Of a DNA stretch of 22,848 nt, positions 5,734 to 22,848 are shown one piece after another. Origin of the DNA: a virus; IMG/VR virus record IMGVR_UViG_3300047673_000155, positions 1 through 22,848 of that record; one strand, given 5' to 3'. The notes under the pieces were generated by a model. It had not been told where the DNA came from. It ran no database searches and saw only the letters and a list, made by a program, of their open reading frames with translations. Made by a program: the position numbers and the translations under genes. Each line of letters starts with the position of its first letter. Position 1 is the stretch's first letter.

Positions 5734-5770
5734 AAAAGACCGGCGACCATCATCTGGTCGCCGGTCTTTT
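5734..5770. terminator. Bidirectional intrinsic terminator between convergent blocks
   Basis: A perfect 16-base inverted repeat (5734-5749 with 5755-5770, loop TCATC) has AAAA at one end and TTTT at the other, so it is a GC-rich hairpin with a U-tract on both strands. It sits between the end of the + strand lysis genes and the end of the - strand replication block, where it would stop both transcripts. Confidence 0.95.
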
Positions 5771-7054: not shown

Positions 7055-7080
7055 GGTATCGGTCCTTTCTTAACGGTTTC

Positions 7081-8374: not shown

Positions 8375-9249
8375 TAGACGGGCCTCCGTGCGAGAGCCTC
8401 CGTGGCGACCGCTGCGCCGTACGCGCGCAACTTGTCGGCCTGGTCGCCGTCCGGGTGGTAGCTCGACACGCCTGCCGACTGCCACAGAACATCGAGCACT
8501 CTCGGCGGCAGGTCGACGGAGGGCGCAGCCGGCGCCAGCTCTCCCAGCTGCGTGGTCATCGAATAGACACCAGCACCTACCTTAACCCTCCCCGTCACGA
8601 TACCGGCGCGGTTCAGCGCTTCAAGATCCACGCGGTCCTCGGCGGGCTCGTCGAAGTTCCGCTCGATACCGTCCTGCACGAGCAGGATCACGTCATGCTT
8701 CGCGCCGGGGTGATCCATCGCTTCGGTGATCTTGCCGAAGATGCGGTGCTCTGCATCGTGGTCGCCGGTGCTCACGTCGACCGAGACTTCCATGCCCTCG
8801 ACCAGCTCCGCCAGTTGCTCGCGGGTAGGCGGCACGAAGTGGCTGATCGGCTCACCTTCGCCGTTCTCCGGAAGCTCGACCACGTCTCCCGTCGCACTCT
8901 CATACAGCTGCACGTCTTCGCCGCAGAAGTGGCAGGCCCAGTACGGCTTGGTCTTGCTGTCCACGCGGCCGTCGGCGTGCTCCTCGCGCGAGAACTCGAA
9001 CAGCTTCGGGTATGGCATGACGTGCTCACAGCCTGAGTCGCAGCAGAACTCGAAGCCCGCGGGCGGCACGCATACGAAGCGCTTGAGCGTCGCTCCGCAG
9101 TAGGCCACGTTCGCAAAGAACACACTCAGCGGGCGCGACCACGTCTGCCCGTCGTCGCTGCGGTAGACGACCATGATCTCTTGCGTCGCTTCGTCCTTGG
9201 CGAGCGCGACCAGATCGTATTCGCCGCCTTTGTAGTGTTTGAATTTCAT
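8374..9249 (-). CDS. DUF1653 domain fused to Cys-rich region, function unknown
   Basis: The protein has 291 residues. Residues 1-45 (KFKHYKGGEYDLVALAKDE ... VVYRSDDGQTWSRPLSVFF) match the DUF1653 fold, usually a stand-alone protein of about 70 residues. Residues 51-115 hold seven Cys (51, 60, 69, 70, 74, 106, 109) including C-x2-C in ACHFCGEDV, which suggests a zinc ribbon. Residues 136-200 (FVPPTREQLAELVEGMEVSVDVSTGD) form a further alpha/beta region, and the C-terminus (240-291) is helical with an Ala/Arg-rich end. The first ATG overlaps the stop of the next gene upstream (TGATG). I know of no assigned function for such a fusion; a nucleic-acid or regulatory role is speculative. Confidence 0.8.
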   Translation of the reverse strand: MKFKHYKGGEYDLVALAKDEATQEIMVVYRSDDGQTWSRPLSVFFANVAYCGATLKRFVCVPPAGFEFCCDSGCEHVMPYPKLFEFSREEHADGRVDSKTKPYWACHFCGEDVQLYESATGDVVELPENGEGEPISHFVPPTREQLAELVEGMEVSVDVSTGDHDAEHRIFGKITEAMDHPGAKHDVILLVQDGIERNFDEPAEDRVDLEALNRAGIVTGRVKVGAGVYSMTTQLGELAPAAPSVDLPPRVLDVLWQSAGVSSYHPDGDQADKLRAYGAAVATEALARRPV

Positions 9250-9368
9250 CAGCGTGTCATCCAGTAGATTGCGATCAGTTTGCCGAGCAGGTGGCCGAGG
9301 TCACCTACGATATCGTTGAGGGCCGCGCCGACCATCGCGGCGCTGACCAGGGTCCAGTAGAGCTTCAT
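9249..9368 (-). CDS. 39-residue small membrane protein
   Basis: ATG 9368 lies in an ATGA overlap with the upstream stop, and the stop shares a base with the next start, so it fits between two coupled genes with no spare sequence. The product has a hydrophobic segment at residues 4-18 (YWTLVSAAMVGAALN) and a second amphipathic stretch (LGHLLGKLIAIYWM). It is too short for family assignment. The tight coupling on both sides is the main support that it is translated. Confidence 0.6.
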   Translation of the reverse strand: MKLYWTLVSAAMVGAALNDIVGDLGHLLGKLIAIYWMTR

Positions 9369-9613
9369 TCGAACACCCTTTTGATGGTCACGGTCACGAT
9401 GTTGTGAGGCTCCGTGTTGTTCAGGTCGATGTATTGGCCGTTGCCCAACCACGCGACGTCCATCGGGATGTCGTCGCCGTCCTTGGGGTCTGTGTAGCCA
9501 CGTTGCACGTTGTAGAGCGCTCGCGGAGTGTCGTGGACCGAGTCCATCCAGCACACCTTGTGATTCCGCCGCGCCAACATCCGCTCCAATTGGTCTATCT
9601 GTTCTGGCGTCAC
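9365..9613 (-). CDS. Uncharacterised 82-residue protein
   Basis: The start is taken as GTG 9613 because GGAGGT lies about six bases upstream, within the last codons of the SbcC-like gene, and because longer in-frame starts would lie deep inside that gene. The product begins TPEQIDQLERMLARRNHKVCWMDS and ends in a beta-rich GNGQYIDLNNTEPHNIVTVTIKRV. No family is recognised. It is coupled downstream through ATGA. It may be a small soluble alpha/beta protein; the function is unknown. Confidence 0.65.
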   Translation of the reverse strand: MTPEQIDQLERMLARRNHKVCWMDSVHDTPRALYNVQRGYTDPKDGDDIPMDVAWLGNGQYIDLNNTEPHNIVTVTIKRVFE

Positions 9614-9614
9614 T

Positions 9615-11798
9615 TCACACCTCCACGATGTTGTCGAAAACTTCTTCCGTGCCGCTCTCGTGCGTAATGACGATCGTCTGCCCGAACCCCGCGCCGGCTG
9701 CGAACGCGAGGCACGCCTGCGTACGATCCGCGCTGCACGCACTGAACGGCTCGTCGAGCACCAGCATGTCGGCACCGGGCACGAAGACCTTGGTCAGGCC
9801 GACGCGGATGCCGAGCCCCAGAAGGTCCAAGGCGCTGCCGCTGTAGCTCGTGTAGGGCTTACCATTGATCAGGAACGTCTTGCCCTCACGCGTGACCTCT
9901 GACGGCTCACGGCGCATGCGTGTGAGGTACGTAGAGACCGCGGAGAGGATCATGTTCCAGAGCTGGTTGCCCACCACCGGCCGCGCGCGGCGCAACGCTG
10001 CGATCAGGTCGTTGTTGAACTGGTACTTCGCAGCCTTCGCTTCGTCCTCAGCCAACAGCTGCTTCAGCCGCGCGAGCATCTGCTTGTGACGCGCTTCGTT
10101 TTCGGTGAGCGACTTCAGCTGGCCCTGCAGCTCGCCGAGGCTGCCCGTGATGTCATTCAGCTTCGCGCGCAGCGTTGCGTTCTGCTGCTCCAGCTTTTCG
10201 ATCAGTTCGTTCAGCTGACCCTCGGTCTCGTCGCGCTTCGTCTTGCGGTGCTCCGCCAGATCGTAGCGCGCGTCGTCGAGGCGCTTGGCAGCTTGCTCAG
10301 CCGCAGATCGGGCAGCCGCGATGTCGCTCTCCGCGCGCTGGATGCTGCGTACCTCCTGCTCAATGCGCGCGATCCCCGGGGCGCTGTCGTGCTGAGCGCC
10401 TTCCGTATCCTTCGGGCCGATCCACTTCATGCGGAACGGTACGAACGTCGAGTCGATCTCGAATAGGTCAGGAAACTGGAGTGCGGTCTCGAAGCGCGGC
10501 GTGCGCAGGATCGCTTCGCCTGCCTCGACGTTTTCCTCGGCCTCGGCGCGCGCTGCCTCGATAGCCGGGATCTGCGAGCGCAGCTTCTGCTGGTCGTTCT
10601 GAAGCGCGACAACGTGATCCTCAAGCCGGCCGTTACTTGCCTTCACTTCGGGGAACTCGCTCACGTCCTTGCCGCACAGCCCGCAGGCGCTCGACGACAC
10701 CTTCTTGCCTTCGGTGACGGCGATGTCCTTGTCGATCCGCGCGATGTCAGCGCGCAGGCCAGTGAGCTGCGTGTCGGCCTTCTTCACCGCGGCGCGCTGC
10801 TCGTTGATGAACTCGCGCAGCCCCCCCTCGCCGGTCTCCGACCACTCCGTTTCCGGCACCGCGTACGCGTCGAACTTCCGCTTCGCTGCAACCACCGACG
10901 CCCACCGCTTCTCCTGCTCCAGCGCGCGGCGCAGCTGCACGAGCTGAGGCTCCAGGTCCGACATCTTGGGTAGCTGCCCGAACGCCGTGATCTGCGAGGT
11001 GACCTTCTCGAACGCTTCGGCGTGATCCTGCTCTGCACGAGCGACGTTGCGGCTCAGCTGTGTTTCGGCGGTGAAGTACTGGCCCAGCTCGCGCAACCGC
11101 GTGCGGGCCTCCTTGAGCGGCTCCACGCGCTTGTTCAGCGCCTCGACGTACTCGGCCTGCTTTGCGACCAGCGGCGCGATGCTCGTGTTGATGTCGGCAA
11201 TCGCAGCTGCGTGGTCGACTGCCTCAGCGTCCGTGATCTGCTCGCGCGTCGACGCGATGCGGTCGTCGATCGAGCCTGTCGGGCCGCATTCGCCCTTCGC
11301 CTCGATCTGCCCGATGATCCACTCGACGATGTCCAGGCCGCTCATCTTCTCGATGAACTCGACCGCCTTGGTGTTGCCCTCATCGAGCAGGCCGCCGATC
11401 TCCTTCTGGCCGGCGAACGACATCTTCTCGACGATATCGAGCGGCGCGCCGAACTGTTCGGTGAACCACGCGGTGACCTCGTTCTGGCCGGTGACGGTCG
11501 GCTTCGGTGCGTCGGCCGGCACGTAGATCTCCGCGCCGTTCTTGCCGCGCGTGGCGCGCACCGAGATACCGTTGAACGTGAACACGCCTTCGACCTTCGT
11601 CGAACTGGCCTTCGCGCCCCACGTCGTGAAGTCGCTATTACGACAGCGCTTGGAGCCGCCCATCAGGTACATCACCGACTCGATGATGGTCGTCTTGCCT
11701 GCTTCGTTCTCGCCGCGCAGTGCGGTGTTGCCGGGCAGGAAGTGGACCACCTTGCTGGTGTGCTGGCGGAAGTTGGTGAGGTGGATTGAGTTAAGCAT
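9615..11798 (-). CDS. SbcC/Rad50-like recombination nuclease ATPase (T4 gp46 type)
   Basis: The protein has 727 residues. It has a Walker A GENEAGKTT at 29-37, a long coiled coil on both sides of a zinc hook C-G-L-C near residues 373-376, an ABC signature-like YSGSALDLLGLG near 648, and Walker B LVLDEPFS near 676 with the D-loop following. This is the SMC-like architecture of SbcC, Rad50 and T4 gp46. With the SbcD-like nuclease encoded two genes upstream it would form an ATP-driven complex that resects ends and opens hairpins during phage replication and recombination. It is shorter than E. coli SbcC (1048), as is usual in phages. It starts at ATG 11798 within an 8-base overlap with the preceding small gene. 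Confidence 0.95.
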   Translation of the reverse strand: MLNSIHLTNFRQHTSKVVHFLPGNTALRGENEAGKTTIIESVMYLMGGSKRCRNSDFTTWGAKASSTKVEGVFTFNGISVRATRGKNGAEIYVPADAPKPTVTGQNEVTAWFTEQFGAPLDIVEKMSFAGQKEIGGLLDEGNTKAVEFIEKMSGLDIVEWIIGQIEAKGECGPTGSIDDRIASTREQITDAEAVDHAAAIADINTSIAPLVAKQAEYVEALNKRVEPLKEARTRLRELGQYFTAETQLSRNVARAEQDHAEAFEKVTSQITAFGQLPKMSDLEPQLVQLRRALEQEKRWASVVAAKRKFDAYAVPETEWSETGEGGLREFINEQRAAVKKADTQLTGLRADIARIDKDIAVTEGKKVSSSACGLCGKDVSEFPEVKASNGRLEDHVVALQNDQQKLRSQIPAIEAARAEAEENVEAGEAILRTPRFETALQFPDLFEIDSTFVPFRMKWIGPKDTEGAQHDSAPGIARIEQEVRSIQRAESDIAAARSAAEQAAKRLDDARYDLAEHRKTKRDETEGQLNELIEKLEQQNATLRAKLNDITGSLGELQGQLKSLTENEARHKQMLARLKQLLAEDEAKAAKYQFNNDLIAALRRARPVVGNQLWNMILSAVSTYLTRMRREPSEVTREGKTFLINGKPYTSYSGSALDLLGLGIRVGLTKVFVPGADMLVLDEPFSACSADRTQACLAFAAGAGFGQTIVITHESGTEEVFDNIVEV

Positions 11799-11991
11799 TT
11801 TTATTGTCCTTGGCGATACGTGCGATGCGAGTCACGTCATCAGTGCGTACGCGGAAAGTGTTGTCCTTGTCGACCAGCGCAAAACGACTCACACGCCAAC
11901 CGGTCGCGCTGCACACGCGTTGAATGAACTCCTGTTCTTCAGCCTCGCGTGTCAGCTCCGGGTACTCGTCATAGTGGCCGGGGTTAGACAT
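11791..11991 (-). CDS. Small protein between SbcD-like and SbcC-like genes
   Basis: This 66-residue protein overlaps the SbcD-like stop (8 bases) and the SbcC-like start (8 bases). It is acidic at the N-terminus (GHYDEYPELTREAEEQEFIQRV) and basic at the C-terminus (RIARIAKDNKN). It resembles no family I recognise. In T4 and relatives small genes also lie between gp47 and gp46, so position alone does not define a role, but it might modulate the complex. Translation is supported by the conserved overlap geometry. Confidence 0.65.
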   Translation of the reverse strand: MSNPGHYDEYPELTREAEEQEFIQRVCSATGWRVSRFALVDKDNTFRVRTDDVTRIARIAKDNKNA

Positions 11992-13057
11992 CCTCGGTCT
12001 CCTTGCGCGTCGCCACGATCGCGTCTACAGCCCCTTGCTGCTCGGGCGTCAGGTTGTCCTTCAGGAAGGTCAGCACGTCGAACCGCTGCACGTTCTCGAC
12101 CGCCTCCAGCGCGCTCACGTCCATCGAGCGGCCGTCGACTTCCACCGCGTTGGTGATGACGAACGCGTTGTGCGACTTGCGCAGCGTCGACACCGCGGCG
12201 AGCACGTCGGCCGCCTGCTCCGCTGTGGCCTCGCCCTTCACGCGGATGAACTCGATCTCGGGCGGCACGGTGCTGAGCTTCGTCCAGTCGACTTCCATGT
12301 AGCTGCCGCGGTCTTCCCACGTCGTGATCGTCGTCATGCTGTGCTGCTCGACACGCAGCGCCCGCTTCATGCTGTTGCCCAGGCAGTCCGAGATCGACGT
12401 CGGGAACTGGTTGCCCACCACGAACACGCCGCTCGCCTCCTGACGCTGCTGGTGCTCGTGGCCGAAGATGATCGACTTCACGCCGGCGCGGTGCAGGCGC
12501 TCGGCCTGAACCTTCGACATGTTCAGCGAGTGATCCGCTTCTTCAGCGAAGCCGTTGTCGAAGTTCGCGTGCACGAAAAGGTACGGGCGCGGGTTCTTTC
12601 CGATGTCGTCGAGCGCAAGGTTGAACAGCTCCTGATTCGGCAGGTGCGGAAGAATCCACACCGGGCCTGCGTCAGTGATCACCTGCTCATAGTCGATGAC
12701 GACGATCACGCGCTCGACGCCGAGCGCTGCAGTGAGCATCGAGCCGAACACGTCGAACGAGCTGAGCTTCTCGCTGTTCTTCGAGATGTCGTGGTTGCCG
12801 CGCGAGAGGATCAACTTGCGGATCTTGCCGAGGCGGAACGCGTCGAGCACTGTGTTGAACGCGCGAACGAGGTCGTTGTTCGAGATTACGAAGCCATCGA
12901 ACAGGTCGCCATTGACGAGCACGTCCTCGTCAGGCTCAGCCAGATCGAGCAGCTGCGCGAAGCAGTCGTGCGCGTAATTGCTCAGCAGGGCGTAGGAGAT
13001 CGGCGTAGTGCCGCCGGTACGGTGTGGTCCGATGTGCAGGTCGTTGAGTGTCAGCAT
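11984..13057 (-). CDS. SbcD/Mre11-like nuclease subunit (T4 gp47 type)
   Basis: The protein has 357 residues. ATG 13057 is chosen because AAAGGA precedes it and the metallophosphoesterase motif starts at once. Motifs in order: LNDLHIG (Asp6, His8), VNGDLFDG (50-54), SRGNHDIS (GNHD 87-90), FVHANFD (His163) and FGHEH (199-202). Together these form the two-metal site of calcineurin-like nucleases of the Mre11/SbcD group. The C-terminal 130 residues would bind the SbcC-like partner. It overlaps the HD-domain gene by 7 bases and the next small gene by 8. The complex processes DNA ends and hairpins. Functional assignment is firm at family level. Confidence 0.95.
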   Translation of the reverse strand: MLTLNDLHIGPHRTGGTTPISYALLSNYAHDCFAQLLDLAEPDEDVLVNGDLFDGFVISNNDLVRAFNTVLDAFRLGKIRKLILSRGNHDISKNSEKLSSFDVFGSMLTAALGVERVIVVIDYEQVITDAGPVWILPHLPNQELFNLALDDIGKNPRPYLFVHANFDNGFAEEADHSLNMSKVQAERLHRAGVKSIIFGHEHQQRQEASGVFVVGNQFPTSISDCLGNSMKRALRVEQHSMTTITTWEDRGSYMEVDWTKLSTVPPEIEFIRVKGEATAEQAADVLAAVSTLRKSHNAFVITNAVEVDGRSMDVSALEAVENVQRFDVLTFLKDNLTPEQQGAVDAIVATRKETEDV

Positions 13058-13635
13058 TGTTCTGTTTCCTTTCCTGCGTTGATGAGGCACTCGCGGTAGC
13101 GCGCGAGGAACTGTTCGTACGCGATCTCGGGGATCATCGGCTCGTCGATGTGGAACTTGTCGATTGCTTCGCAGCCGTAGACTCCGAGCAGCGAGCCCCA
13201 CGCGTCCGTGTTGTGCATGATGTCGCGCTGCTCAATTGCGAGAGCGATCAGGTCAGCAGTGCGCGTGCCGTGCTCGTTGAACACCGCACCCGGCGCGAGC
13301 CGATCCATCAGGTAACGCTGCACCTCAGCCTCGATCTCGACGTACCCCGGCAGCAGGCTCTTGAGCGGCGAGGTAATGTCACCCAGCAGCGCCTCGCTCG
13401 CGTCGTGCATCAGGCCGCCGAACACGACGCTCGCGGGCGCGTCTGCACGCTGCAGGATGTCGGCCACGAGGATGCTGTGCTCCGCGACGCTATAGAAGCG
13501 TTCACACTGCCCTGCGAACCGGCACACGTTGGACAGACCCTTGGCGATGTCGGGGATCTCGACTTCGTTCGACCAGATGTTCGTGAAGTCGAAGTAGCGG
13601 CCGGTGAAAGTGATGATGTCTTTGCGGATAGTCAT
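13051..13635 (-). CDS. HD-domain phosphohydrolase (YfbR/DatZ-like nucleotidase)
   Basis: The protein has 194 residues. The HD metal site is complete: CRFAGQ with Arg39, SVAEHS with His53, LMHDASEA with His77, Asp78 and Glu81, and Asp128. The segment FYSVAEHSILV and GLMHDASEALLGDITSPLK are characteristic of the YfbR-type deoxynucleotide phosphohydrolases. The same broad group contains DatZ, a dATP hydrolase of phages with 2-aminoadenine DNA, so the substrate (dNMP or dNTP) cannot be fixed from sequence by eye. It lies between the ligase (ATGA overlap) and the SbcD-like gene. A role in tuning the dNTP pool alongside ThyA and the dNMP kinase is the natural inference. Confidence 0.88.
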   Translation of the reverse strand: MTIRKDIITFTGRYFDFTNIWSNEVEIPDIAKGLSNVCRFAGQCERFYSVAEHSILVADILQRADAPASVVFGGLMHDASEALLGDITSPLKSLLPGYVEIEAEVQRYLMDRLAPGAVFNEHGTRTADLIALAIEQRDIMHNTDAWGSLLGVYGCEAIDKFHIDEPMIPEIAYEQFLARYRECLINAGKETEQC

Positions 13636-14999
13636 GCGATCACTCCCGGTGACGTGACCAGATCGCGGAACGCTTTCTTCCGCGCGTGGCGCAGCGCACC
13701 GCTCGGCATCCTTCCGTTGAACTCGACGTCGATGAGTCTGCCGATTACATAATTCTTCGGGTCAGGCTGCGCTACGTGCTCCGTGATGACGCGGAGACCT
13801 GTAGCCTTGTCTTGCTCGATCGCGGTGTAGGTCACTGCCCTGCCGCTATGTGCGGCCCAGATAGCTGCGCGCTCGTACACCGACCAACCGCCACCGACAT
13901 CCGAGGGCACGCCGTCGAGCGAGACCATGACACCACCCAACGAGTTTTCGAATTGGCCGCCTGCATGGCCGGCGTACACCGCAGTGATCTCGACCGTCGC
14001 TGGGTCGGTCTGCTTGATCTTCAACCAGTCGGCCGAGCGCTTCTTCGAGTAGCGCGACGCTGCGTTCTTGAACACACCCCCTTCGAAGCCCGCGTCCATC
14101 CACGCGTCGCCCATAGCGAGCATCGCGGTCGCGTCATCACCGAACGACGTGTGCGACAGGTAGCGCACGTTTTCCGGCTCGTTGCCGCGGAAGTAAGCCT
14201 GCAGCTCCAGCAACCGATCTTCAAGCGCTGCGCCAACCACATCGCCGCCGCGCGTATCGTTGAACAGGTCGAACGGGATGATGTCGAAGCACTGCAGGAT
14301 CGTGGTCGACTTCAGGCTCTCGATGTTGACCGTGCGGCGCAGCTGCCCGATCGAGTCGAGGAAATCCACGCCCACGCCCTCAGCGTCGACCACGAGGTGC
14401 CGGCCGCCGAACACTTCAAGCACCTGCGGCTCCAGATGCTTCAGCGCCGGGATTTCGTTACCGCTGCGGGTGAAAAATGTCGCGCTGTTGTCGCGCACTA
14501 CGGCCAGCGAACGCATGCCGTCGAACTTGATCGAGCCGAGCCAGTTGGAACCCGGCTTGATGCGCTTCGCTTCGAACGGCTTGGCGAGCGCACAGGTGAA
14601 TACCGGGATGTGGAAGTCGAGACCGAGCTGGTTGATCGTCTTGATGCCGACGCCGCACTTCAGCTCCTTGTCGAGCGCGCGGTTCAGCAAGTCCACAGCG
14701 ATCTGGCTGTAGTGCTGGCCGAAGTTCATCAGCGCCGTCTTCGCAGCGTTGCCGGTGATCTCGCGTTGAGCGAGCGAGTCGAGCAGCGTGTAGCAGCCCT
14801 CATCCCATTCGCACTGACCGCCGCCCCACGCGACCTTGCCCTTCTGGCCGTAGGTGATGCTGGGGTCGAGCACGGCCATGATGTAGCGCCGCACGTTGTC
14901 GCCGGCGGGGCCGTTGTAGGAGAGCAGGCTTTTGACTTTAGATTCGAGAGCGCTGCCGCTGACTGATGCGAACTGGCTCAGGACGTCGTAGATACTCAT
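13632..14999 (-). CDS. ATP-dependent DNA ligase
   Basis: The protein has 455 residues and seals nicks using ATP. The nucleotidyltransferase core shows motif I KFDGMR at 158-163 (Lys158 is adenylated), motif III near VVDAEGVG, motif IV FEGGVFKN and motif V DWLKIK, followed by a C-terminal OB-fold region (ITAVYAGHAGG onward) ending near 455. The N-terminal 140 residues form a helical DNA-binding-type domain, as in T4 ligase (487 residues). ATG 14999 follows CAAAGGAACC at suitable spacing. It is encoded in the same block as the PolA, with the helicase directly upstream and 41 bases between, and would complete Okazaki-fragment processing. Confidence 0.96.
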   Translation of the reverse strand: MSIYDVLSQFASVSGSALESKVKSLLSYNGPAGDNVRRYIMAVLDPSITYGQKGKVAWGGGQCEWDEGCYTLLDSLAQREITGNAAKTALMNFGQHYSQIAVDLLNRALDKELKCGVGIKTINQLGLDFHIPVFTCALAKPFEAKRIKPGSNWLGSIKFDGMRSLAVVRDNSATFFTRSGNEIPALKHLEPQVLEVFGGRHLVVDAEGVGVDFLDSIGQLRRTVNIESLKSTTILQCFDIIPFDLFNDTRGGDVVGAALEDRLLELQAYFRGNEPENVRYLSHTSFGDDATAMLAMGDAWMDAGFEGGVFKNAASRYSKKRSADWLKIKQTDPATVEITAVYAGHAGGQFENSLGGVMVSLDGVPSDVGGGWSVYERAAIWAAHSGRAVTYTAIEQDKATGLRVITEHVAQPDPKNYVIGRLIDVEFNGRMPSGALRHARKKAFRDLVTSPGVIA

Positions 15000-15040
15000 T
15001 GCGGGTTCCTTTGGGTGGGTAAAGGAGTTGTGGGGGTGAA

Positions 15041-16555
15041 TCAGTAACCGATGATTGCGTCGAAACGGGCGCGGGTGACCGCCACGTACAGCGCTGTGTT
15101 GTACTCAAAGGTCGTGGGCATCTGCATCAGGTTCGGCAGATCGATCAGCGCGATGTCGAACGTGCTGCCCTGCGACTTGTGCGTGGTCATCGCGAACGTG
15201 TGGCGGATATCAGCGAAGCTGTTCTTGTAGAGCCACGCAGCGCCGCGCGCCTGCGTGTACTTTTCCTTCAGCTGGATGTTGCGCGGCTCGCGCTGGTGCT
15301 GATACTTCAGATCCTGCACTTCGGCGAACATCTCTCCGAGGCGCGAGTTCAGTGCGTTCATCAGCTTCGGCGTGTACACCTTCACGTAGTTGCCGAGGTC
15401 GTCCTTCAGGACCATCACGTAGCAGGTGAAGCCGGGGTACTTGTGGTGCTCGCCCATCTCGACGTGCTCGATCACCAGCTCCTCGCTCGTCACCAGATCG
15501 ACGTCCTTGCCGGTGTCGATGTTCTCGCCCTTGGTCGCGCTCTGCACGATCACGCGCTCGCCTACAGAGAACATCAGCGGCACCGACTCCGGGTATAGGT
15601 CGAAGTGGATCTCGCGGTTGTAGTCGAGCACAGCGCGGTTCATGTACGCGAGAATCCGCGCGTCGCGTCCTTCACGCTGCAGATCGAGCGCCATGCCGTA
15701 GAGGCGGTTGCGCTTGACCATCGAGTCGGGCAGCAGGTCCATCAGGTCGCTGACCTGCACGCGGTCTTCCTGCCCGAGAGAGCGGATGATGCGCTCCTGC
15801 TCGTCGACGGTCGGCGCAGCGAGGATGTCTTCAATGCGATTCTTGCGCCGGATGAACATCGACGCCTCGATCAGCGGGTTGCCCTCAGCCTGCCGGATGA
15901 TCTTCGTCATCGTGGCCTTCTGCGGCAGCGCGAACACGCGCGACATGCCAGCCTCCATCACCGGCTTCAGCTGACCGGGGTCGCCGACGAACAGCACCAG
16001 CGTACGGCCGCGGCTGTTCTGGATCGCCTGCAGCAGCATCTTCGAGTCGACCATCGACGCCTCGTCGACGATCAGCAGGTTCACGCCGTCGAACTTCGAG
16101 TAGCCGGTGCTGGAGATCTTCAGCTCGCCGTCATCGCTCTCGACCATGCGCAGCCCACAGATGCTGTGCAGGCTGCTGAACGTAGCGTTGACCACGCGCG
16201 CCTTGGCAATGGCGCGGACCTTCTCCTGCAGGATCGAGACCGCCTTGTTGGTCGGCGCTGTGACCGCGAGGTTCCAGTCGTGGGCCGACGCTTCCATGAT
16301 CAGCTCGCCGACGAGCACCGTCTTGCCGACGCCAGCGAAGCCGCGCAGCACGTAGTAGTCGTCGGGGTTGTCGGAGAACCACTCCTCGGAGTCCTCGGGC
16401 ATCCGGAAAGCAGGCTTCTTCCACTTGAGTTCGTCGCCGCCTTCCTGCCGCGGGTCGCGGCGCACCATCCAGGTGAGGATCTTGTCGAGTTCAGTCCGCT
16501 GTTCAGCGGACAAACCCTCATAGGACGCGACGGCGTCCTGGGTGATCGTGCTCAT
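15041..16555 (-). CDS. SF1 DNA helicase, Dda/RecD-like
   Basis: The protein has 504 residues. Superfamily 1B motifs appear in order: Walker A GFAGVGKT (72-79), motif Ia TAPTNKA (99-105), Walker B LIVDEAS (161-167), motif III GDPGQLKPV (191-199), an accessory region with a long insertion (about 380-430), motif V TTHKSQGSTFDIALID and motif VI YVAVTRARF near the C-terminus. This matches the 5'-3' helicase Dda of T4 (439 residues) and RecD-type helicases. It probably supports origin firing, fork restart or recombination. The start at ATG 16555 is fixed by GGGAG at 16562-16566. A short stem-loop lies just upstream of that site. The replicative hexameric helicase is not in this window. Confidence 0.94.
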   Translation of the reverse strand: MSTITQDAVASYEGLSAEQRTELDKILTWMVRRDPRQEGGDELKWKKPAFRMPEDSEEWFSDNPDDYYVLRGFAGVGKTVLVGELIMEASAHDWNLAVTAPTNKAVSILQEKVRAIAKARVVNATFSSLHSICGLRMVESDDGELKISSTGYSKFDGVNLLIVDEASMVDSKMLLQAIQNSRGRTLVLFVGDPGQLKPVMEAGMSRVFALPQKATMTKIIRQAEGNPLIEASMFIRRKNRIEDILAAPTVDEQERIIRSLGQEDRVQVSDLMDLLPDSMVKRNRLYGMALDLQREGRDARILAYMNRAVLDYNREIHFDLYPESVPLMFSVGERVIVQSATKGENIDTGKDVDLVTSEELVIEHVEMGEHHKYPGFTCYVMVLKDDLGNYVKVYTPKLMNALNSRLGEMFAEVQDLKYQHQREPRNIQLKEKYTQARGAAWLYKNSFADIRHTFAMTTHKSQGSTFDIALIDLPNLMQMPTTFEYNTALYVAVTRARFDAIIGY

Positions 16556-16566
16556 GTTTTTCTCCC

Positions 16567-16585
16567 GGCGACATTTTCAGTCGCC
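16567..16585 (-). other. Stem-loop directly upstream of helicase ribosome-binding site
   Basis: GGCGAC (16567-16572) and GTCGCC (16580-16585) pair around a 7-base loop; the stem abuts GGGAG that precedes the helicase ATG. It may tune helicase translation or simply occupy the 50-base gap after the nuclease gene. No T-run follows on the - strand, so termination is unlikely. Confidence 0.4.
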
Positions 16586-16605
16586 TCGAATCTGCTATCT
16601 GAATA

Positions 16606-17121
16606 CTAAAGGGTGTTATTGAACCAGGGTCTCAGCTCGGCGTCAAGCGCGGCCTTCGCAGTGGGGTACGAAGGCCAGCCGTCTGTTGCGAAGTCGCCCT
16701 TCGTCTGCTCGAAGAAGGGGTCAATCAGCATCGCCACCCACCGGTCGTTGTCCCCGGTGTGATGCACGAGCACCACGACGGGCACGCCAGCCAGAGAGCG
16801 GCGCTTCAGGCGGTTGATCTGCGGACGCGGGAAGTTCTTCGAGGGCAGCTTGTCGAAGCTGGTCTCCTTCACTTCGAGCGTCAGCAGCCTGCCGGTCCAC
16901 ATCATGTCGTAGTCGCCCACCACGGCCTTCACAACACCGCCCGCTTCACGCGTATCGACCGGGCGGTCCCAGGCGAACCCCATGCCGCGCTTCAGCTGCT
17001 CAGCCTTGAGCCACTGCTTCACGGCGTTCTCGCTCGCCTTACCCTTCTGGCCTTGCTTCTTGCGTCGCGCGCGGTCGTCGCGCCACGCAGTGAAGGCTGT
17101 GTTGTCGGCGGTTTCAGACAT
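16606..17121 (-). CDS. PD-(D/E)XK nuclease, possible Holliday-junction resolvase (RecU-like)
   Basis: The protein has 171 residues. A PD-(D/E)XK core is visible: Glu31 in KGKASENAVKQWL, Asp70 and Asp72 in VVGDYDMMW, ExK in LTLEVKET (Glu83, Lys85) and Gln101 in RPQINRL. This spacing and order match RecU-type resolvases and related DNA nucleases, and the basic N-terminus (RARRKKQGQKGK) fits DNA contact. It ends with a small alpha/beta tail (MLIDPFFEQTKGDF). The neighbours (helicase, ligase, SbcCD) support a recombination or junction-resolving role, but a general restriction-type or VRR-NUC-like nuclease cannot be excluded. It overlaps the previous gene by 8 bases (ATGTCTGA). Confidence 0.8.
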   Translation of the reverse strand: MSETADNTAFTAWRDDRARRKKQGQKGKASENAVKQWLKAEQLKRGMGFAWDRPVDTREAGGVVKAVVGDYDMMWTGRLLTLEVKETSFDKLPSKNFPRPQINRLKRRSLAGVPVVVLVHHTGDNDRWVAMLIDPFFEQTKGDFATDGWPSYPTAKAALDAELRPWFNNTL

Positions 17122-17383
17122 ACCGGAAGCGCCCCGACAATCCGGTGTGGAACTCGCCGTCCCAATCGAGCGGGTAGACGTCCTGCAGCGCTCGCTGGTT
17201 CGGCGTGCCTGCTGCGTCGACCACGTTCACATCGATCCTGAACGCCCGCGCCTCAGCGCTCCACTTCACCTCGCGGCTCGTGACCTTGACGGGCACCGGC
17301 GCCTTGCGCGAGTTCAGTTTGATCAGCACCTCGGTGCCCACTTCCGGCAGTCCTGCGCCGTTCCAGTTTTTCTTTACGCCCAT
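17114..17383 (-). CDS. Uncharacterised 89-residue beta-rich protein
   Basis: The protein starts VKKNWNGAGLPEVGTEVLIKLNSRKAPVPVKVTS, a pattern of a small beta-barrel (GT-x-V-L-I strand, basic loop, VKVTS strand), and then EARAFRIDVNVVDAAG and PLDWDGEFHTGLSGRFRYV. It has no catalytic motif or membrane span. It overlaps the zinc-finger gene by 10 bases and the nuclease gene by 8. It could bind nucleic acid or a partner, but no family is recognised. Overlaps on both sides are the main evidence that it is expressed. Confidence 0.7.
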   Translation of the reverse strand: MGVKKNWNGAGLPEVGTEVLIKLNSRKAPVPVKVTSREVKWSAEARAFRIDVNVVDAAGTPNQRALQDVYPLDWDGEFHTGLSGRFRYV

Positions 17384-17643
17384 GATTTCTGCCCCCGGTT
17401 ACCAATACGTTTTTCGTGGTCCTGCTGACACTCTGACTTTCCACCGCTGACGAGCGGCGGGCAGTAGAGCGTGCCCTTGTCGATGGATTCCCGGCAGTTG
17501 AGGCATACACCTGCTGCGAGATTTCTTTCTTCATGCTCCTTGCGCTCTCGGGCGATTTTTTCGGCGGCCTTGCGTTGAACTGACAAGCTCGCTGCCAGCT
17601 CAATCTCGACCGTGTCGTTTGCTGCATCTGCAATATCTGGCAT
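17374..17643 (-). CDS. Small treble-clef-like zinc-finger protein
   Basis: The protein has 89 residues. The first 45 are helical and charged (AAEKIARERKEHEERN). Then come C47-x2-C50 (CLNC), C61 (LYCPP) and C72 with QQDHEKR, which resembles the short phage zinc-finger proteins with a C-x2-C ... C-x3-C-x-D pattern (treble clef, DksA/TraR-like in style), but with a Gly/Ser-rich insertion (VSGGKS) between the last ligands. It is the first gene after a 64-base gap that contains a hairpin. DNA or RNA polymerase binding is possible; no function is assigned. Confidence 0.75.
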   Translation of the reverse strand: MPDIADAANDTVEIELAASLSVQRKAAEKIARERKEHEERNLAAGVCLNCRESIDKGTLYCPPLVSGGKSECQQDHEKRIGNRGQKSWA

Positions 17644-17671
17644 CTCTGAACCCCATATATCTTGTGGAATA

Positions 17672-17687
17672 CCCGGTCTTTGCCGGG
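17672..17687 (-). other. Short hairpin in gap between two small genes
   Basis: CCCGG (17672-17676) and CCGGG (17683-17687) pair around a 6-base loop in the 64-base gap 17644-17707. The stem is short and no T-run follows in the direction of transcription, so it is a weak terminator at best. It lies 28 bases before the zinc-finger gene start. Confidence 0.35.
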
Positions 17688-17707
17688 CATTCGTATCGTA
17701 CTCCGAA

Positions 17708-17893
17708 CTACTTTAGCGCTCTATAGATCCACGGCGTACCGTTCGGGCTATAGGTCACCAGCTCGCCCTGCTGAAGCACGGGCACAGCACGGCTGTTCGG
17801 GCGGCCCGGTTGCAGGTGAGCGATGCGGCGCACTTCCTCGCGACCATTGGCGACCACCAGAACCTCGGTGAAGATGTCGTACCTACGCTGCAT
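17708..17893 (-). CDS. Small 61-residue protein after DNA polymerase
   Basis: ATG 17893 lies inside the last codons of the polymerase gene (11-base overlap) and follows GGGGGTG at good spacing. The protein is basic at its start (QRRYDIFTEVLVVANGREEVRRI) and ends TPWIYRALK. No family is recognised. The length of the overlap and the ribosome site support translation. It is followed by the 64-base gap with a hairpin, so it may end a local segment of the transcript. Confidence 0.6.
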   Translation of the reverse strand: MQRRYDIFTEVLVVANGREEVRRIAHLQPGRPNSRAVPVLQQGELVTYSPNGTPWIYRALK

Positions 17894-20800
17894 GCTTCAC
17901 CCCCGAATCGTTCGCTGCGTGTTGCGGCCAGAGCTGGTCGATTGCACCCTGGATCTTGTCGGTGCTCGGCACCTCGCCGATCTCGATCAGGTTCAGGAAG
18001 TCGTGGCCGATGCCGATGCTCGACTCGATCGGGATAGTCATGTTTGCGTACTGCATCGTCATCAGTGCGTGCAGCTCCTGCGTGAACTTGACGATATCAC
18101 CGCGACCGACGCTGAACACCAGCTCGTCGTGCACCACGCCGATGAACGTTGCGTCGTAACGAACCAGCAACTTCGCGCGCCAGATCCGACCCATCGCGAG
18201 CTTCGTCATCTCGGCGCAGCTGCCCTGAATGACGAAGTTCACCGCCTGACGCTCGGCCCGGCTGCGAATCCACCATTCCGACGATGCGAACGCGCTCGCG
18301 AGATGGCGCCGGCCGCCGAGCAGCGTGAGGCTGTAGCCCTGGCGCTTGGCCTGCGGAATGATCTCCTCCTTTTTCCATTCTTCCGCGCGCCAGAACGTGC
18401 CGTGCTTTGCGTCGAGATAGGCTTGCGCTTCTTCTTCCGGAACCATCAGCGTTGCAGCCATCTTCGGGGCCATCGCGCCGTACTCCGAAGCGAAGTTCGT
18501 CGTCTTGGCCTTTTTGCGCAGCGCCTTGATCTGCTTGTGCAGCGGGTGGTTCACGTCCTTCTCGACCGCAGCGAACCACTCGTACGTGACTTCCTCGTTG
18601 ACCTCGATCTCCTTGGTCTGAGCCTTGCGCTGCGTGATCGACACGCCGGTGAGGTGGTGCATATCGCGCTTGTTGTCGCCCACGAAGCACGACGTCATCG
18701 CTTCGTCGCCTGACGCGTCGGCGATCACGCGCAGCTCCTGCGCCTTGAAGTCGAGCGCCACAATCGCTGCGTCGTGGTGGTGTGGCTTGATCGTCGCGCG
18801 GAAGTCGCCCTTCTCGCCCTTCGGCCATTGCGCCTTGTTCGGCTTGTTCGGCGCGAACCGGCGCGTCACCGTGCGGCACTGACCGTCGCTGCCATGCACG
18901 CTGCCATCCATCCAGTGCGGCAACGCACGGTACGGGCGGTAATACATCTTGCGCCGCGTGCCGACGGCTCGCATGTCGTGGATTGCGTCGAGCATCGCGA
19001 CTTCCGTCGGGTGCGTTTCGCTGTCGTAGAACTTCGCCGACGCAATCGCGAGCGCGTCGGTCTTCGGCGTGCCCACAGCGCTACGGCCCTGCTCCGCCTT
19101 CATTGCCTTGGTCGGGCGGTTGCGAGCGCGCACAGGCAGACTCATGACTTCGTACAGCAGCCGGGACATCTGCTTCGGGCTGTCGCTGTTCAGCTCGGGC
19201 TCGCCCTTATAGAAGCGCCGCACGTACGCTTCGACGTGAGACATGTTGCCGTCGGCAGTCTTGATTGCAGCGTCGTACAGGTCAGCCAGCGTCGCCGCGT
19301 CGTCGTTCTCGCGCATCACTGCGGTGATCTTCGACGGCGTGCGCGCCTTGCACTCCAGCTCGACGCCGGTAACGATCTGATACATCACCTTCATCGACGC
19401 GGGTTCGAGCGTCACAGCGGGCAGCTCGACGCCGTCCCACTTCTTCTCGATCAGGTACGAGCGCAGTTTCGCCCACGCTGCGTCGTAGAGCTTGTCGTCT
19501 GCACGCTCCTGCTTGCGCATTTCTTCGCGGCTGAAGTTGACGCCAGTGATGAAGCCCGCCGCGCTCAGGTACGCTGCGTCGATCTCGACCTCGCGGTACA
19601 GGTCGAACGTACGCTCCAGCTGCATCACGATCTCGTAGTAGTTGCGCAGCGCCGCGGTGACGATCGTGTCGTCGGTGCCGTATGCAAACGCCTCCTGCGG
19701 CGTGAGCTGGTTCATCTTGCGGCCCTGCGTCACTTCCTCGTACGAGACCTGCTCATAGCCCAGCACCATCTGCGCCTGCTGCTTGAGGCCGAGCGACACG
19801 TTCTCGTCGACGTAGCTCGCCATGAAGAACGTGTCGTCGATGCGCGGCATGAAGCCGTTGTCGAACTGATCGTCGCCGTCCGTCCACTCGATCAGGTTCA
19901 TGAACCACACCGGCAGTTCGAACGCGCTGTTGTGTACAGGGAAGCGAATCTCCACGTCCTCGCGGATGAGTCGCGCGAGGAACTGGTACAGGTTGTGCAT
20001 CGAGATGTTTTTGTCGGTCTTGTGGTTGACCGTCAGGTACAGCGTTTTCTCGGTGTTCTCGCCGTAGGTCACACCCATGCTGACAATCTTCGAAGCCAGC
20101 ACATCGACGCCGCCTGCGCGCTTCTTCGCAACAGCTTCCTGCGGATCTTCGTCCTCGTCGTCGCTCTCGATCTCCTCGACATAGTCCGGGTCGTTCACCT
20201 GCGCGAGCCACTCATCGGACTCAGGGGGCGTCGCCGTTTCCAGGTCGAGCGTGACATACGGCGACTTCCGGATGTCGGCCCACAGTTTGCTCGCCATGAA
20301 CTGCGCGAAGTTACCGCTGGTCACGAGCTTGCGCAGCTGATACCAGTGATCGAAGCGCTCGTCCTTGGGCTCGCCTTCCGGCTTCTCCGTCACCATGCCG
20401 ACGTCCCACTGCAGCTCCTTGCCCGGCTGGCCGATCTCCGCATCGAAAAACTGCACGCACTGGTAGCAACGGCGCACGACGTCCTTGTGTTCGAGCAGCT
20501 TGGCGAGAGGCTTGAAGTCCGCAGCTGCGACCTCGATCGACTTCCAGTCGGCCTTCACGATGACGTCTTCCAGCTCGCGCATGCCGTCGGCGTCTGCCGC
20601 GCAGTACAGGTCGGTGAACGCTGCCACGCCAAAGCCGTGCGCGCCGGGCAGCGTGTCGCTCTTGTCGCCGACCAGCGCCTTGTACAGGCGGTTGAATTCG
20701 AGCGGCCACGGCCCGAGCGGATTCTCGTTCGGGTCGATGACCTTCGACTGGTAGCGGATCTTCACGTCGGGCAGCGTCGCGAGGATCAGCATGTCACCGT

Positions 20801-21245
20801 CGTCGGCCACGCCGACGCGCGGACCCTGCAGGTTCTTCATCAGGTACGCGAACACGTCGTCGGCCTCGCGGCCGTCGAGCTTCACGAACACGCTGCCCAG
20901 TCGCTTGAAGAACTCGACGACCTTGTTCTCCATCAGCAGGTACTGCTCCAGCTGCTCGGGCGGCTTTTCCTTCTTCTGCTTGTAGCCTGCGAAGATGTTG
21001 CGGCGCAGCTGCGAGCCGTTCTCGCCTTCGCGGATGAAGATGATGTCCATCGGCGTGGCGTCGTGCTCGCGCAGCGTTTTCTCGACGCTGTTCAGGAAGT
21101 TCTCGAAGCCGTATTGCCAGCCGTTGACATGCTCGGACTTCTCGTTGAACGTGACCTTGAAGCCGAACTCCTTATCCTGGCCGGCGAAGTAGCAGCGCTT
21201 GGCGACGCTGCTGAGGTCGTAGACGATGCGGGTGCGCTTACGCAT
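17883..21245 (-). CDS. polA: DNA polymerase I family, with 5' nuclease and proofreading domains
   Basis: The protein has 1120 residues, longer than bacterial Pol I (about 930). The 5' nuclease (FEN) domain spans residues 1-300: IVYDLSS (Asp10), GREADDV (124-130), DDGDML and LVGDKSDTLPG (191-201), so its metal ligands are largely intact. The proofreading domain has DLE (about 334-336), NSAFELPVW and YGTDD (about 522-526), with a very acidic insertion after ExoI (ESDDEDEDPQ, about 355-370). The polymerase has motif A LDFKAQELR (about 830), motif B TTNFASEYG (about 915-923, Phe at the dideoxy-discriminating position) and motif C VVHDELVF (about 1038). All three activities look functional. It is the likely replicase, able to remove primers or flaps and leave nicks for the ligase. 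ATG 21245 follows GGAGG and overlaps the kinase stop by 8 bases. Confidence 0.96.
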   Translation of the reverse strand: MRKRTRIVYDLSSVAKRCYFAGQDKEFGFKVTFNEKSEHVNGWQYGFENFLNSVEKTLREHDATPMDIIFIREGENGSQLRRNIFAGYKQKKEKPPEQLEQYLLMENKVVEFFKRLGSVFVKLDGREADDVFAYLMKNLQGPRVGVADDGDMLILATLPDVKIRYQSKVIDPNENPLGPWPLEFNRLYKALVGDKSDTLPGAHGFGVAAFTDLYCAADADGMRELEDVIVKADWKSIEVAAADFKPLAKLLEHKDVVRRCYQCVQFFDAEIGQPGKELQWDVGMVTEKPEGEPKDERFDHWYQLRKLVTSGNFAQFMASKLWADIRKSPYVTLDLETATPPESDEWLAQVNDPDYVEEIESDDEDEDPQEAVAKKRAGGVDVLASKIVSMGVTYGENTEKTLYLTVNHKTDKNISMHNLYQFLARLIREDVEIRFPVHNSAFELPVWFMNLIEWTDGDDQFDNGFMPRIDDTFFMASYVDENVSLGLKQQAQMVLGYEQVSYEEVTQGRKMNQLTPQEAFAYGTDDTIVTAALRNYYEIVMQLERTFDLYREVEIDAAYLSAAGFITGVNFSREEMRKQERADDKLYDAAWAKLRSYLIEKKWDGVELPAVTLEPASMKVMYQIVTGVELECKARTPSKITAVMRENDDAATLADLYDAAIKTADGNMSHVEAYVRRFYKGEPELNSDSPKQMSRLLYEVMSLPVRARNRPTKAMKAEQGRSAVGTPKTDALAIASAKFYDSETHPTEVAMLDAIHDMRAVGTRRKMYYRPYRALPHWMDGSVHGSDGQCRTVTRRFAPNKPNKAQWPKGEKGDFRATIKPHHHDAAIVALDFKAQELRVIADASGDEAMTSCFVGDNKRDMHHLTGVSITQRKAQTKEIEVNEEVTYEWFAAVEKDVNHPLHKQIKALRKKAKTTNFASEYGAMAPKMAATLMVPEEEAQAYLDAKHGTFWRAEEWKKEEIIPQAKRQGYSLTLLGGRRHLASAFASSEWWIRSRAERQAVNFVIQGSCAEMTKLAMGRIWRAKLLVRYDATFIGVVHDELVFSVGRGDIVKFTQELHALMTMQYANMTIPIESSIGIGHDFLNLIEIGEVPSTDKIQGAIDQLWPQHAANDSGVKHAA

Positions 21246-21858
21246 GCTGGGCCTCCAGCTTGCGGCACATCGTGCCGAGCATCACACCGACTTCGAGCGC
21301 GAGGCGGTCCACGCTGCCGGTGTTGCTCAGTGTGAAGTCGCCGTCCTTGCACGCTACGCCGCGGGTGCTTCGGTGGCCGCCGCCGTCACCAGCTGCGCGA
21401 CCGCGCACCGGGCCGTCGAGATGCACGACGAAGCTGTTGGGCAGCGACCTCACCCACTCCGACTCGATCTCGCCGATCGGGTCTGTGAGGTCCGTGATGA
21501 CGATCACGGGGCCGCGGCTGATGTCATCGCCGCCATGTAGCGATTGCCACGTAGCGTCGGCCGTACGCACCCAAAAGTCAGCGCCGAACTTATCCTGGTA
21601 GATATCGGCCGTCGTCTGGTACATCTGGCGCGGCGTGATGCACCACACCGGATGCGTGAGCCCCTTGTGGGTGTCGTCGAGCCACTCGTCGCTCAGGCCG
21701 AACGCAGCTTGCGCAGCCTTCTTCACGGGGCCTGCGAACGCGAGGCGATGCGGCGACAGCGTGTTATTCGTCGCAGCTTGCTGGATCAGTCTGTAGACGG
21801 TGTCCTTGCCGACACCGTGCGGGCCGGTCAAAGCGATGGTCATGCTGGGGAGGTACAT
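21238..21858 (-). CDS. Deoxynucleoside monophosphate kinase (T4 gp1-like)
   Basis: The protein has 206 residues. The P-loop GPHGVGKDT (12-20) and the later VITDLTDPIGEIESEW and SNTGSVDRL segments match the phage dNMP kinase family, where the aspartate-containing strand and the C-terminal N-x-G-S/T-x-x-D-L turn are conserved. It would phosphorylate dNMPs (including dTMP from ThyA) to dNDPs. A Gly-rich lid (AAGDGGGHRS) lies near residue 155. ATG 21858 is supported by AAGGAGACC; an ATG 15 bases later lacks this. It overlaps the upstream small gene by 19 bases and the polymerase start by 8, so nucleotide supply and synthesis are coupled. Confidence 0.88.
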   Translation of the reverse strand: MYLPSMTIALTGPHGVGKDTVYRLIQQAATNNTLSPHRLAFAGPVKKAAQAAFGLSDEWLDDTHKGLTHPVWCITPRQMYQTTADIYQDKFGADFWVRTADATWQSLHGGDDISRGPVIVITDLTDPIGEIESEWVRSLPNSFVVHLDGPVRGRAAGDGGGHRSTRGVACKDGDFTLSNTGSVDRLALEVGVMLGTMCRKLEAQHA

Positions 21859-22061
21859 GCGGTCTCCTTGTTCGTTTCATTCAGTGCGATGCACATCGCC
21901 TTCGCGTCGTTCCTGTCGTGGCACTCGGCCACGGCGTAGAAACGCCACGCTTCGGGCGTGTACGGGTTGCCCATCGAGTCGCGGGTCGTATCAACGACCG
22001 TCGCCTGGAAAGCGCTGTAGCCGGCCTGGGAGCCTTCGATAACCTTGAATCGCTCAGCCAT
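21840..22061 (-). CDS. Small conserved phage protein (FKVIEGSQ ... ATVVDTT type)
   Basis: The protein has 73 residues. ATG 22061 shares a base with the stop of the exonuclease gene (TGATG), and longer upstream extension would lie inside that gene. The sequence RFKVIEGSQAGYSAFQATVVDTTRD, then RFYAVAECHDRNDAKAMCIALNETN resembles a family of 60-80 residue phage proteins of unknown function that occur near replication genes. It is predicted as one beta-hairpin pair and a final helix. There is no zinc site. It overlaps the kinase start by 19 bases. The role is unknown. Confidence 0.7.
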   Translation of the reverse strand: MAERFKVIEGSQAGYSAFQATVVDTTRDSMGNPYTPEAWRFYAVAECHDRNDAKAMCIALNETNKETACTSPA

Positions 22062-22780
22062 CACAGCTCCCTCAACGCGCGCTTCAGTTCCCAGCTGGCC
22101 GTCTCGCACTCGCCGCTGAGCAGCCAGTTCACGTACGTCTCGGGCAGCGCAGTGAGCGCGCGGCCTTTGTACTGGCCGAAGCTGATCTTCGTGAGGCGTT
22201 CGCACATCACGTCGACGAGCAGCTCCCAGCCGGTGCCGAAGCTGAGGATGTAGTTGATGAGCGCGAGACAGCGTTCGCAGTCGCCCATCGCACTGTGTGC
22301 GTTCTTCATCGGGGGCAGCGTGACGCCGTGCGTTCTTTCGAGCGTGCTCAGCAGCAAATCCAGCCGATAGCCCGAAACGTCCTGAATGAATCGCTTGGCG
22401 CCGCGGATCGTGCAACCGACCTCTGCGCCCTTGGGCACGTAGTAGTCGATGTACTTCATGTCGAAGCTGGGGAAGCCGTGGCCGAAGATGTAGAACTTCT
22501 CGGTGGGCAGAACACCGAATGCCTCGGGCAGCACTTCGCTGATCGTCGGAGCCTGCTTGACCTGATAGTCGTACAGGCCGTGAACGTCGGTGGCTCTAGG
22601 GTCGATAGGTCGCAGGGGGTTGACCAGGGTCTCGAAGCGGCGAACCGGTTCGAGCTGCGTCATGAATTCGCCGATGTTCAGGCGGCACTCGATGAACGCG
22701 ATTTCGCAGACCTTGTCGTCGCGGGACATGCCCGTGCACTCCAGGTCCATAACAAAAATTTTCATGTGGGTGGGTTCCAT
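22061..22780 (-). CDS. DEDDh 3'-5' exonuclease with C-terminal DUF3820-like domain (ExoX-like)
   Basis: The protein has 239 residues. The DnaQ-type site is complete: FVMDLECTG (Asp12, Glu14), SFDMKYID in the ExoII region, and NAHSAMGDCERC with the final His and Asp of the DEDDh set. The C-terminus (about 195-235: ISFGQYKGRALTALPETYVNWLL, ELKRALREL) matches the small DUF3820 domain found at the end of ExoX-like exonucleases. It would degrade DNA 3' ends in repair or mismatch processing, or hydrolyse host DNA. Two starts are possible, ATG 22780 and ATG 22765 (MKIFVMD). Neither has a good ribosome site, and the first begins only four bases after a terminator-like hairpin. Confidence 0.9.
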   Translation of the reverse strand: MEPTHMKIFVMDLECTGMSRDDKVCEIAFIECRLNIGEFMTQLEPVRRFETLVNPLRPIDPRATDVHGLYDYQVKQAPTISEVLPEAFGVLPTEKFYIFGHGFPSFDMKYIDYYVPKGAEVGCTIRGAKRFIQDVSGYRLDLLLSTLERTHGVTLPPMKNAHSAMGDCERCLALINYILSFGTGWELLVDVMCERLTKISFGQYKGRALTALPETYVNWLLSGECETASWELKRALREL

Positions 22781-22809
22781 GAAAAGAGCCGCTCCCGAAA
22801 GAGCGGCTC
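22781..22809 (-). terminator. Terminator-like hairpin directly before ExoX-like gene
   Basis: GAGCCGCTC (22786-22794) and GAGCGGCTC (22801-22809) form a perfect 9-bp stem with a 6-base loop. Read on the - strand it is followed by TTTTC and then the ATG at 22780, as an intrinsic terminator would be. It would stop or attenuate transcription coming from the right of the window. Confidence 0.75.
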
Positions 22810-22830
22810 ACTGCTATAGGACTGCAGTGC

Positions 22831-22848
22831 TTACAGCTGCGGCGCTTC
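22831..22848 (-). CDS. Possible 3' end of another - strand gene (partial)
   Basis: Read from the right edge on the - strand, the frame GAA-GCG-CCG-CAG-CTG runs into TAA at 22831-22833 (EAPQL then stop), about 21 bases before the terminator-like hairpin. This is what the end of a gene would look like, but only five codons are visible, so the call rests on context. Confidence 0.3.
   Translation of the reverse strand, partial: EAPQL

Follow-up and report, generated by a model that had tools for sequence, protein, structure and literature searches.

A probable leaky terminator behind a putative single-stranded DNA-binding protein gene in a phage replication block

A terminator lies behind gene 32 of phage T4. 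Control of that gene involves a leader pseudoknot and RNase E, according to the accessible text of two reports (PMC3014915, PMC535899). In the T7-like phage LUZ100, as described in the accessible part of its report (PMC10134795), the major capsid gene stands between a promoter of its own and what seems to be a strong terminator, while other parts of the genome are transcribed by sequential read-through. The same text gives tandem promoters for the single-stranded DNA-binding protein (SSB) genes of LUZ100 and LUZ7 (Drc) and states that SSB is often needed in high abundance. Promoters and terminators were also predicted by the authors of phage PMBT3, so far as the accessible text goes (PMC8421299), and the available text of a groundwater-phage paper that mentions PMBT3 (PMC7368026) yielded nothing on promoters or terminators. 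A literature search for terminators near start codons gave nothing usable.

The locus described here lies at one end of the window, by which we mean the whole stretch of DNA analysed, a complete virus record of 22,848 bases classed as linear. It resembles the LUZ100 capsid unit (accessible text of PMC10134795) in having a local promoter-like site, one gene and a probable terminator directly after it, within a longer block probably served by read-through; it differs in that the gene probably encodes a replication protein, that the unit is a predicted one and that the next start is very close to the stem. The promoter-like site belonging to a probable SSB gene in a replication block also recalls the SSB genes of LUZ100 and LUZ7 in that text, although here there is mostly one sigma70-like site per gene instead of tandem promoters. 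T4 gene 32 is a parallel in that the gene here is preceded by a leader, 113-148 bases long in the eight sequences that allow a measurement, and that its product may have a gp32-like fold. With phages of the PMBT3, Lana, UAntarctica and Vibrio SHOU24 type it shares primase and SNF2-type helicase genes just upstream and a hairpin after the gene; in our lineage the primase/helicase order is swapped. In those phages a MazG-like gene or polA follows the hairpin, and its start has a ribosome site and a wider spacing from the stem. The features of the window are collected in Table 1.

Table 1. Coordinates of the features discussed, in window positions.
Feature	Position	Strand	Evidence
Terminator-type hairpin	22786..22809	-	Stem base 22 bases past stop codon; same sequence in the two longer contigs
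Short T run TTTTC after stem	22781..22785	-	Tail score second weakest of 13 homologous junctions
ExoX/DnaQ-type DEDD 3'-5' exonuclease, long reading from ATG 22780	22061..22780	-	PF00929 E 3e-15, phrog_192 E 1e-34
exoX, preferred reading from ATG 22765	22061..22765	-	Predicted opening cost 10.5 vs 26.0 kcal/mol; aligns with L027 start
Predicted three-way RNA junction	22736..22830	-	-45.5 kcal/mol, z -6.36
Last five codons (E A P Q L) and TAA stop of upstream ssDNA-binding-like gene	22831..22848	-	Identical to 3' end of L002:4880-5950
Strong hairpin, T runs on either strand	5735..5769		Far convergent end of same minus-strand block

The hairpin and the gene it follows

On the minus strand, positions 22809-22786 read GAGCCGCTC TTTCGG GAGCGGCTC, which forms nine perfect pairs and a closing U-G, 10 pairs in all. 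Seven of these are G-C and the loop has four bases, so that the stem is G+C-rich as in an intrinsic terminator; folded alone, the hairpin is predicted at -18.2 kcal/mol. Downstream of the stem comes TTTTC and then ATG 22780, with five T in the first eight bases, as is likewise expected of an intrinsic terminator. The sequence-only reading had described a perfect 9-bp stem and TTTT on this strand; both stand, and only the spacing has to be corrected, since the stem ends five bases and the TTTT one base before ATG 22780. The hairpin is one-directional, the plus-strand side having ACTGC after the stem and no T run. The hairpin and its tail pass the rule of the terminator-finding program, and a score of the d'Aubenton-Carafa type is 33.6, above zero.

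Without its context such a hairpin is not rare, and the stem alone is little proof. Terminator-like sites in 12849-22848 number nine against 7.6 expected, and shuffling of the window (n = 40, both strands) gave seven hairpins at or below -17 kcal/mol. What goes beyond chance is the position of the hairpin, 22 bases after the stop codon of the upstream gene, a placement that recurs in the 12 other relatives examined. Searches for known RNAs returned no Rfam match at the gathering score in the whole window, three sub-threshold matches in a relaxed Rfam search of 22600-22848 (the best, sbrA, at 25.3 vs 45 bits) and no tRNA; comparison of the window DNA with named phages gave no match.

The same hairpin is present in two longer IMG/VR contigs, of 85,240 and 40,205 bases. 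The final 146 bases of the window recur without a difference in the locus from the 40,205-base contig (L002), and the locus from the 85,240-base contig (L003) reads the same at the junction. Upstream of the hairpin both carry a same-strand gene of 356 codons (L002:4880-5950), which ends in TAA at window 22833-22831, and the hairpin is thereby seen to mark where a gene finishes. The rest of this gene is beyond the contig end, which is why the sequence-only reading was blind to it. The puzzle of a terminator abutting a start codon has two sources: the contig stops 39 bases short of the hairpin, and the first ATG was taken as the start.

Homologues of the upstream gene are PMBT3 gp053, Lana gp049 and UAntarctica uan_095, together with genes on five further IMG/VR contigs in the Pseudomonas-phage group (seven were returned, two of them PMBT3 and Lana again). 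The homologue in L027 is divergent (33% identity), and that in Vibrio phages SHOU24, K449 and K45 sits between helicase and polymerase genes; hhalign to the Vibrio phage proteins gave a probability of 98.9 and E 2e-17. The L002 protein aligns with that of PMBT3 at 25% over 240 columns, and direct comparison gives E 6e-4 for that pair alone, while tblastn of the L002 and L027 upstream proteins against named phages gave no match at E 0.01 and 0.001. Removal of repeats left 13 distinct sequences from about four lineages. Those dropped before counting were L003 (the L002 junction), L028 (PMBT3 again), L032 (Lana again), and L004-L007, L025 and L026 (both contigs again); L030 and L034 share a sample, and their proteins are near-identical.

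A gene end was scored as terminator-like when a hairpin of -10 kcal/mol or lower lay within 70 bases of the stop, with at least three T in the next five bases. All 13 distinct homologous genes pass this rule, against 17 of 134 other genes. For the six annotated loci alone the comparison is 6/6 vs 17/134 (Fisher 1e-5, which is not a true probability, the sequences being related). The 134 controls are same-strand genes from those six loci, exclusive of cut genes, opposite-strand genes, one uncut UAntarctica gene (L016:21125-21346) and those genes of the three Vibrio loci that lie before about 8.5 kb. This is a lax criterion, since PMBT3 terB passes as well: after that gene a -20.1 kcal/mol hairpin with TTTGTTTA lies at L015:7927-7948, a place where the accessible text of the phage's authors (PMC8421299) reports no terminator. 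Among 17 gene ends examined in the window's own block, two pass, namely the convergent end that comes last (-20.3) and, weakly, that of the dNMP kinase (-10.7); several of these ends, and of the 18 starts compared below, belong to open frames without a family match.

In 13/13 sequences the stem base lies 18-31 bases past the stop. T tails are longer or better by score in 11 of the 13, the exceptions being the window and L027 (only TTTG). The stem sequences differ between lineages, and so does the next gene where it is known, which is an exonuclease in the window's lineage and L027, MazG-like in PMBT3 and Lana, a pyrophosphohydrolase in UAntarctica and polA in the Vibrio group. Since both vary, the element goes with the upstream gene and not with exoX. 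The suspicion of a terminator in the sequence-only reading is thus strengthened by comparison (13/13), except that the terminator would belong to the upstream gene, and the hairpin is probably not a special start signal for exoX.

A sigma70-like site precedes the upstream gene in 13/13 sequences, in a scan of 200 bases upstream (650 for L031, L033 and L034, whose gene start is uncertain). The eight Pseudomonas-phage-like sequences have TTGACA-18-TATAAA, with 11 of 12 matches, and the other five, the window's lineage included, match at 9 of 12. In the same loci the background is about 0.45 per kb for sites of at least 9 of 12 and 0.03 per kb for at least 11. Such a site and a terminator-like hairpin occur together in 6/6 of these genes vs 3/134 others; all three exceptions are from a single position beside the tail genes in Vibrio phages, annotated GroES in two. 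A sigma70-type search found no minus-strand site of at least 9 of 12 between 22848 and 6199. With that, and with 20 bases between the stem and ATG 22765, the earlier statement that the downstream block needs read-through or a promoter of its own was a fair one.

The identity of the upstream protein is approached mainly through models and neighbours. The L002 protein has no sequence match in PHROGs, Pfam, NCBIfam or PDB, and so falls in none of their named SSB families. A single-sequence structure model was useless (pLDDT 35.5), whereas a nine-sequence model, still poor, had a mean pLDDT of 58.6, with a better core. Among viral models (BFVD), two proteins annotated as ssDNA-binding match at E 1.5e-4 and 9e-4; against solved structures Foldseek returned nothing at E 0.001 or better, with RB69 gp32 at about 0.2. 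A second-look aligner matched the RB69 and T4 gp32 cores at Z 5.5, 5.1 and 5.0, with 4-8% identity; Z of about 5 falls in the range that the tool calls common, and the top rank in the same alignment went to an unrelated integrase-RDF fusion (Z 5.6). This structural evidence for a gp32-like fold is suggestive, no more. In L002, SNF2-type helicase and primase-like genes precede the gene, a neighbourhood that fits an SSB role. The gene probably encodes a phage ssDNA-binding protein, possibly with an OB-fold of T4 gp32-like shape.

Two observations concern the start of this gene in relatives. The leader of the SSB-like gene is well conserved in the Pseudomonas group (L015:5339-5464, L017:4605-4717 and relatives), with one helix predicted just after TATAAA and a second before TATAAA, thus outside that RNA. 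By analogy with T4 gene 32 this leader could be a translational operator; the covariation term for its helices is not supportive. In UAntarctica the annotated start of uan_095 (L016:7159-7275) runs through the leader, and homologues begin at a later MALKRAA, so the annotation is probably 39 codons too early.

The start of exoX

ATG 22765 is in frame with ATG 22780, 15 bases downstream of it. GGGAG, which also occurs in the Shine-Dalgarno position before 16555 and 13635, stands 11 bases upstream of ATG 22780, where it forms part of the hairpin's 3' arm; the sole candidate for ATG 22765 is GGAA. It had been held that neither start has a clear ribosome site, which is right for ATG 22765 and overlooks the GGGAG of ATG 22780, sequestered as that may be. 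Opening the RNA from -15 to +10 around ATG 22780 is predicted to cost 26.0 kcal/mol, the highest among 18 starts in the block. The other 17 cost 4.1-17.4 kcal/mol, so that ATG 22765, at 10.5, is ordinary. For the next starts in the 12 other phages the cost is 2.8-8.3 kcal/mol, the next start in L030, L031, L033 and L034 being taken as the first ATG at least 55 bases past the stop. A Shine-Dalgarno-like site precedes the next start in the seven relatives checked, namely L015, L016, L017, L027 and, by eye, three Vibrio phages.

ATG 22765 lies 20 bases past the stem and the exonuclease start of L027 lies 22 bases past its own. The shorter reading fits the exonuclease core; L027 and an Acinetobacter phage agree with it, while other homologues are longer and have variable N-termini. 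In our judgement ATG 22765 is probably the start in use, and ATG 22780 most likely falls merely within the leader. If translation starts at 22765, the exoX start no longer abuts the hairpin.

Readings of the junction

We consider it quite likely that the hairpin is an intrinsic terminator of the upstream probable-SSB gene, that this gene forms a promoter-gene-terminator unit of its own in the replication block, and that the terminator is leaky, exoX being expressed by read-through. RNA polymerase would start before the SSB-like gene and mostly stop at about 22785-22781, which would give an SSB-only message. A fraction would read on into exoX, the dNMP kinase, polA and the rest of the block, and the downstream genes would be transcribed mainly via read-through from upstream. 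The terminator is expected to be leaky because only TTTTC, a short T run, follows the stem. In the 12 other phages the gap from stem to next start is also short, about 22-37 bases, and therefore read-through would seem to be usual at this junction. A separate unit inside a co-directional replication block could provide abundant SSB, in excess of the enzymes that follow, and ExoX would most likely be translated from ATG 22765. An odd hairpin at a contig edge would in this way become a testable rule, that the probable SSB gene is a self-contained unit, which extends over 13 sequences in about four lineages. The rule helps to annotate a gene unnamed by the libraries searched and suggests how SSB could exceed polymerase and nucleases, while the three-way junction considered below is a small lead on exonuclease control.

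It may be asked whether the hairpin acts after transcription, as a 3'-end stabiliser or a processing site of the RNase III or RNase E type. One block transcript would then be cut at the hairpin, which would leave the upstream message stable and exoX on an RNA of its own. The weak T runs of the window (TTTTC) and L027 (TTTG) would suit such a role, as would the predicted outer helix of the junction, which might form one long duplex by stacking on the hairpin. T4 gene 32 offers a precedent in the accessible text of PMC3014915, where RNase E cuts all its messages upstream of the start and there is another site close to the stop. Nevertheless, by the score used, the T tails of 11 of 13 sequences are longer or better, in keeping with a classical terminator, the T run is on one strand only, and the outer helix is absent from four other junctions folded; we think this reading unlikely. 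Far more improbable is a leaderless exoX message, or a promoter inside the hairpin, with a start at 22780 or 22765. ATG 22780 does come directly after the T run, and the sequence-only reading had raised a leaderless message or a processed 5' end there. Yet no minus-strand sigma70-like site of at least 9 of 12 lies at the junction, the best L002 junction site, found under looser rules, matches 8 of 12 and would place the transcript start within exoX, a Shine-Dalgarno-like site is present in the seven relatives checked, and ATG 22780 is the most deeply buried of the 18 starts, so that neither proposal gains support.

Another possibility takes the RNA around the hairpin into account. In the predicted three-way junction, an outer helix pairs 22830-22811 with 22755-22736 and encloses the terminator hairpin and a helix of UUUUCAUG (22785-22778) with CAUGAAAA (22766-22759). 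The structure runs from the base after the stop to exoX codon 10, counted from 22765, and holds both ATGs. In addition to termination, read-through RNA might thus lock the terminator, both exoX ATGs and GGGAG together and keep the exonuclease low until a helicase, a ribosome or a DNA-binding protein opens it. The predicted energy speaks for this, since 0/200 shuffles are as good, and so does the burial of ATG 22780. The core is kept in 8/8 contexts folded, the window's own allele included, with the outermost pairs rearranged in the 400-base context. When the 21-base spacer is replaced, 0/1000 shuffles and 0/2000 genomic 21-mers reach -45.5 kcal/mol, but the best, at -44.9 and -44.7, are within 1 kcal/mol. 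Against it, the junction is confined to this lineage, and its members do not differ over the stretch, so covariation cannot show, and neither it nor its outer helix is present in the four other junctions folded. Its boundaries were a best cut met by chance; in a 95-base scan of the 85-kb relative it is not among the top 20 listed, and in a 120-base scan it ranks 21st over both strands. The cost at ATG 22765 is ordinary, the next starts in the 12 other phages are predicted to open for 2.8-8.3 kcal/mol, and the UAntarctica junction reaches z -4.2 without burying its start. A similar junction in L027 was not counted: the outer helix is drawn, but the start opens at 5.7-7.7 kcal/mol and z is -2.1. 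Regulation by the predicted junction is, in our view, doubtful, and we treat the structure as a lead, an unexplained extra to the terminator. Slightly less probable again is an elaboration in which the terminator is built into a three-way junction enclosing the ribosome site and both starts, the exonuclease being limited twice, by termination and by an occluded start, and in which the upstream SSB itself could open the RNA. Were that so, SSB opening of the junction would link exonuclease supply to free SSB.

Mosaicism and other features of the window and its relatives

Sequence conservation at the junction was considered as proof of RNA constraint and rejected. Recombination explains the identity equally well, because exoX is mosaic, with a near-identical stretch at about 22068-21890, and polA is again nearly identical. 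Relative to contig G002, window 21246-22702 carries a different allele, with about 82% identity in exoX and roughly half in the dNMP kinase gene, whereas 4000-21245 is 100% identical as rounded, with two mismatches; the switch is at or near the polA start. Between L002 and L003, all 45 differences over 12.7 kb fall within about 460 bases of polA (8228-8690), another mosaic patch.

At the far end of the block, the hairpin at 5735-5769 lies between a converging spanin gene and the minus-strand block, and the end of the plus-strand gene contains a second minus-strand terminator-like hairpin, with TTTTTTT, at 5676-5647. The most structured minus-strand stretch of the 85-kb relative is G001 80071-80330 (L022), with z -11.2 and -8.9 (40 shuffles) and long inverted repeats. 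Finally, window 1098-1538 holds 63-base tandem repeats in the tail-fibre gene, with six overlapping 126-base copies that are 68-100% like the reference.
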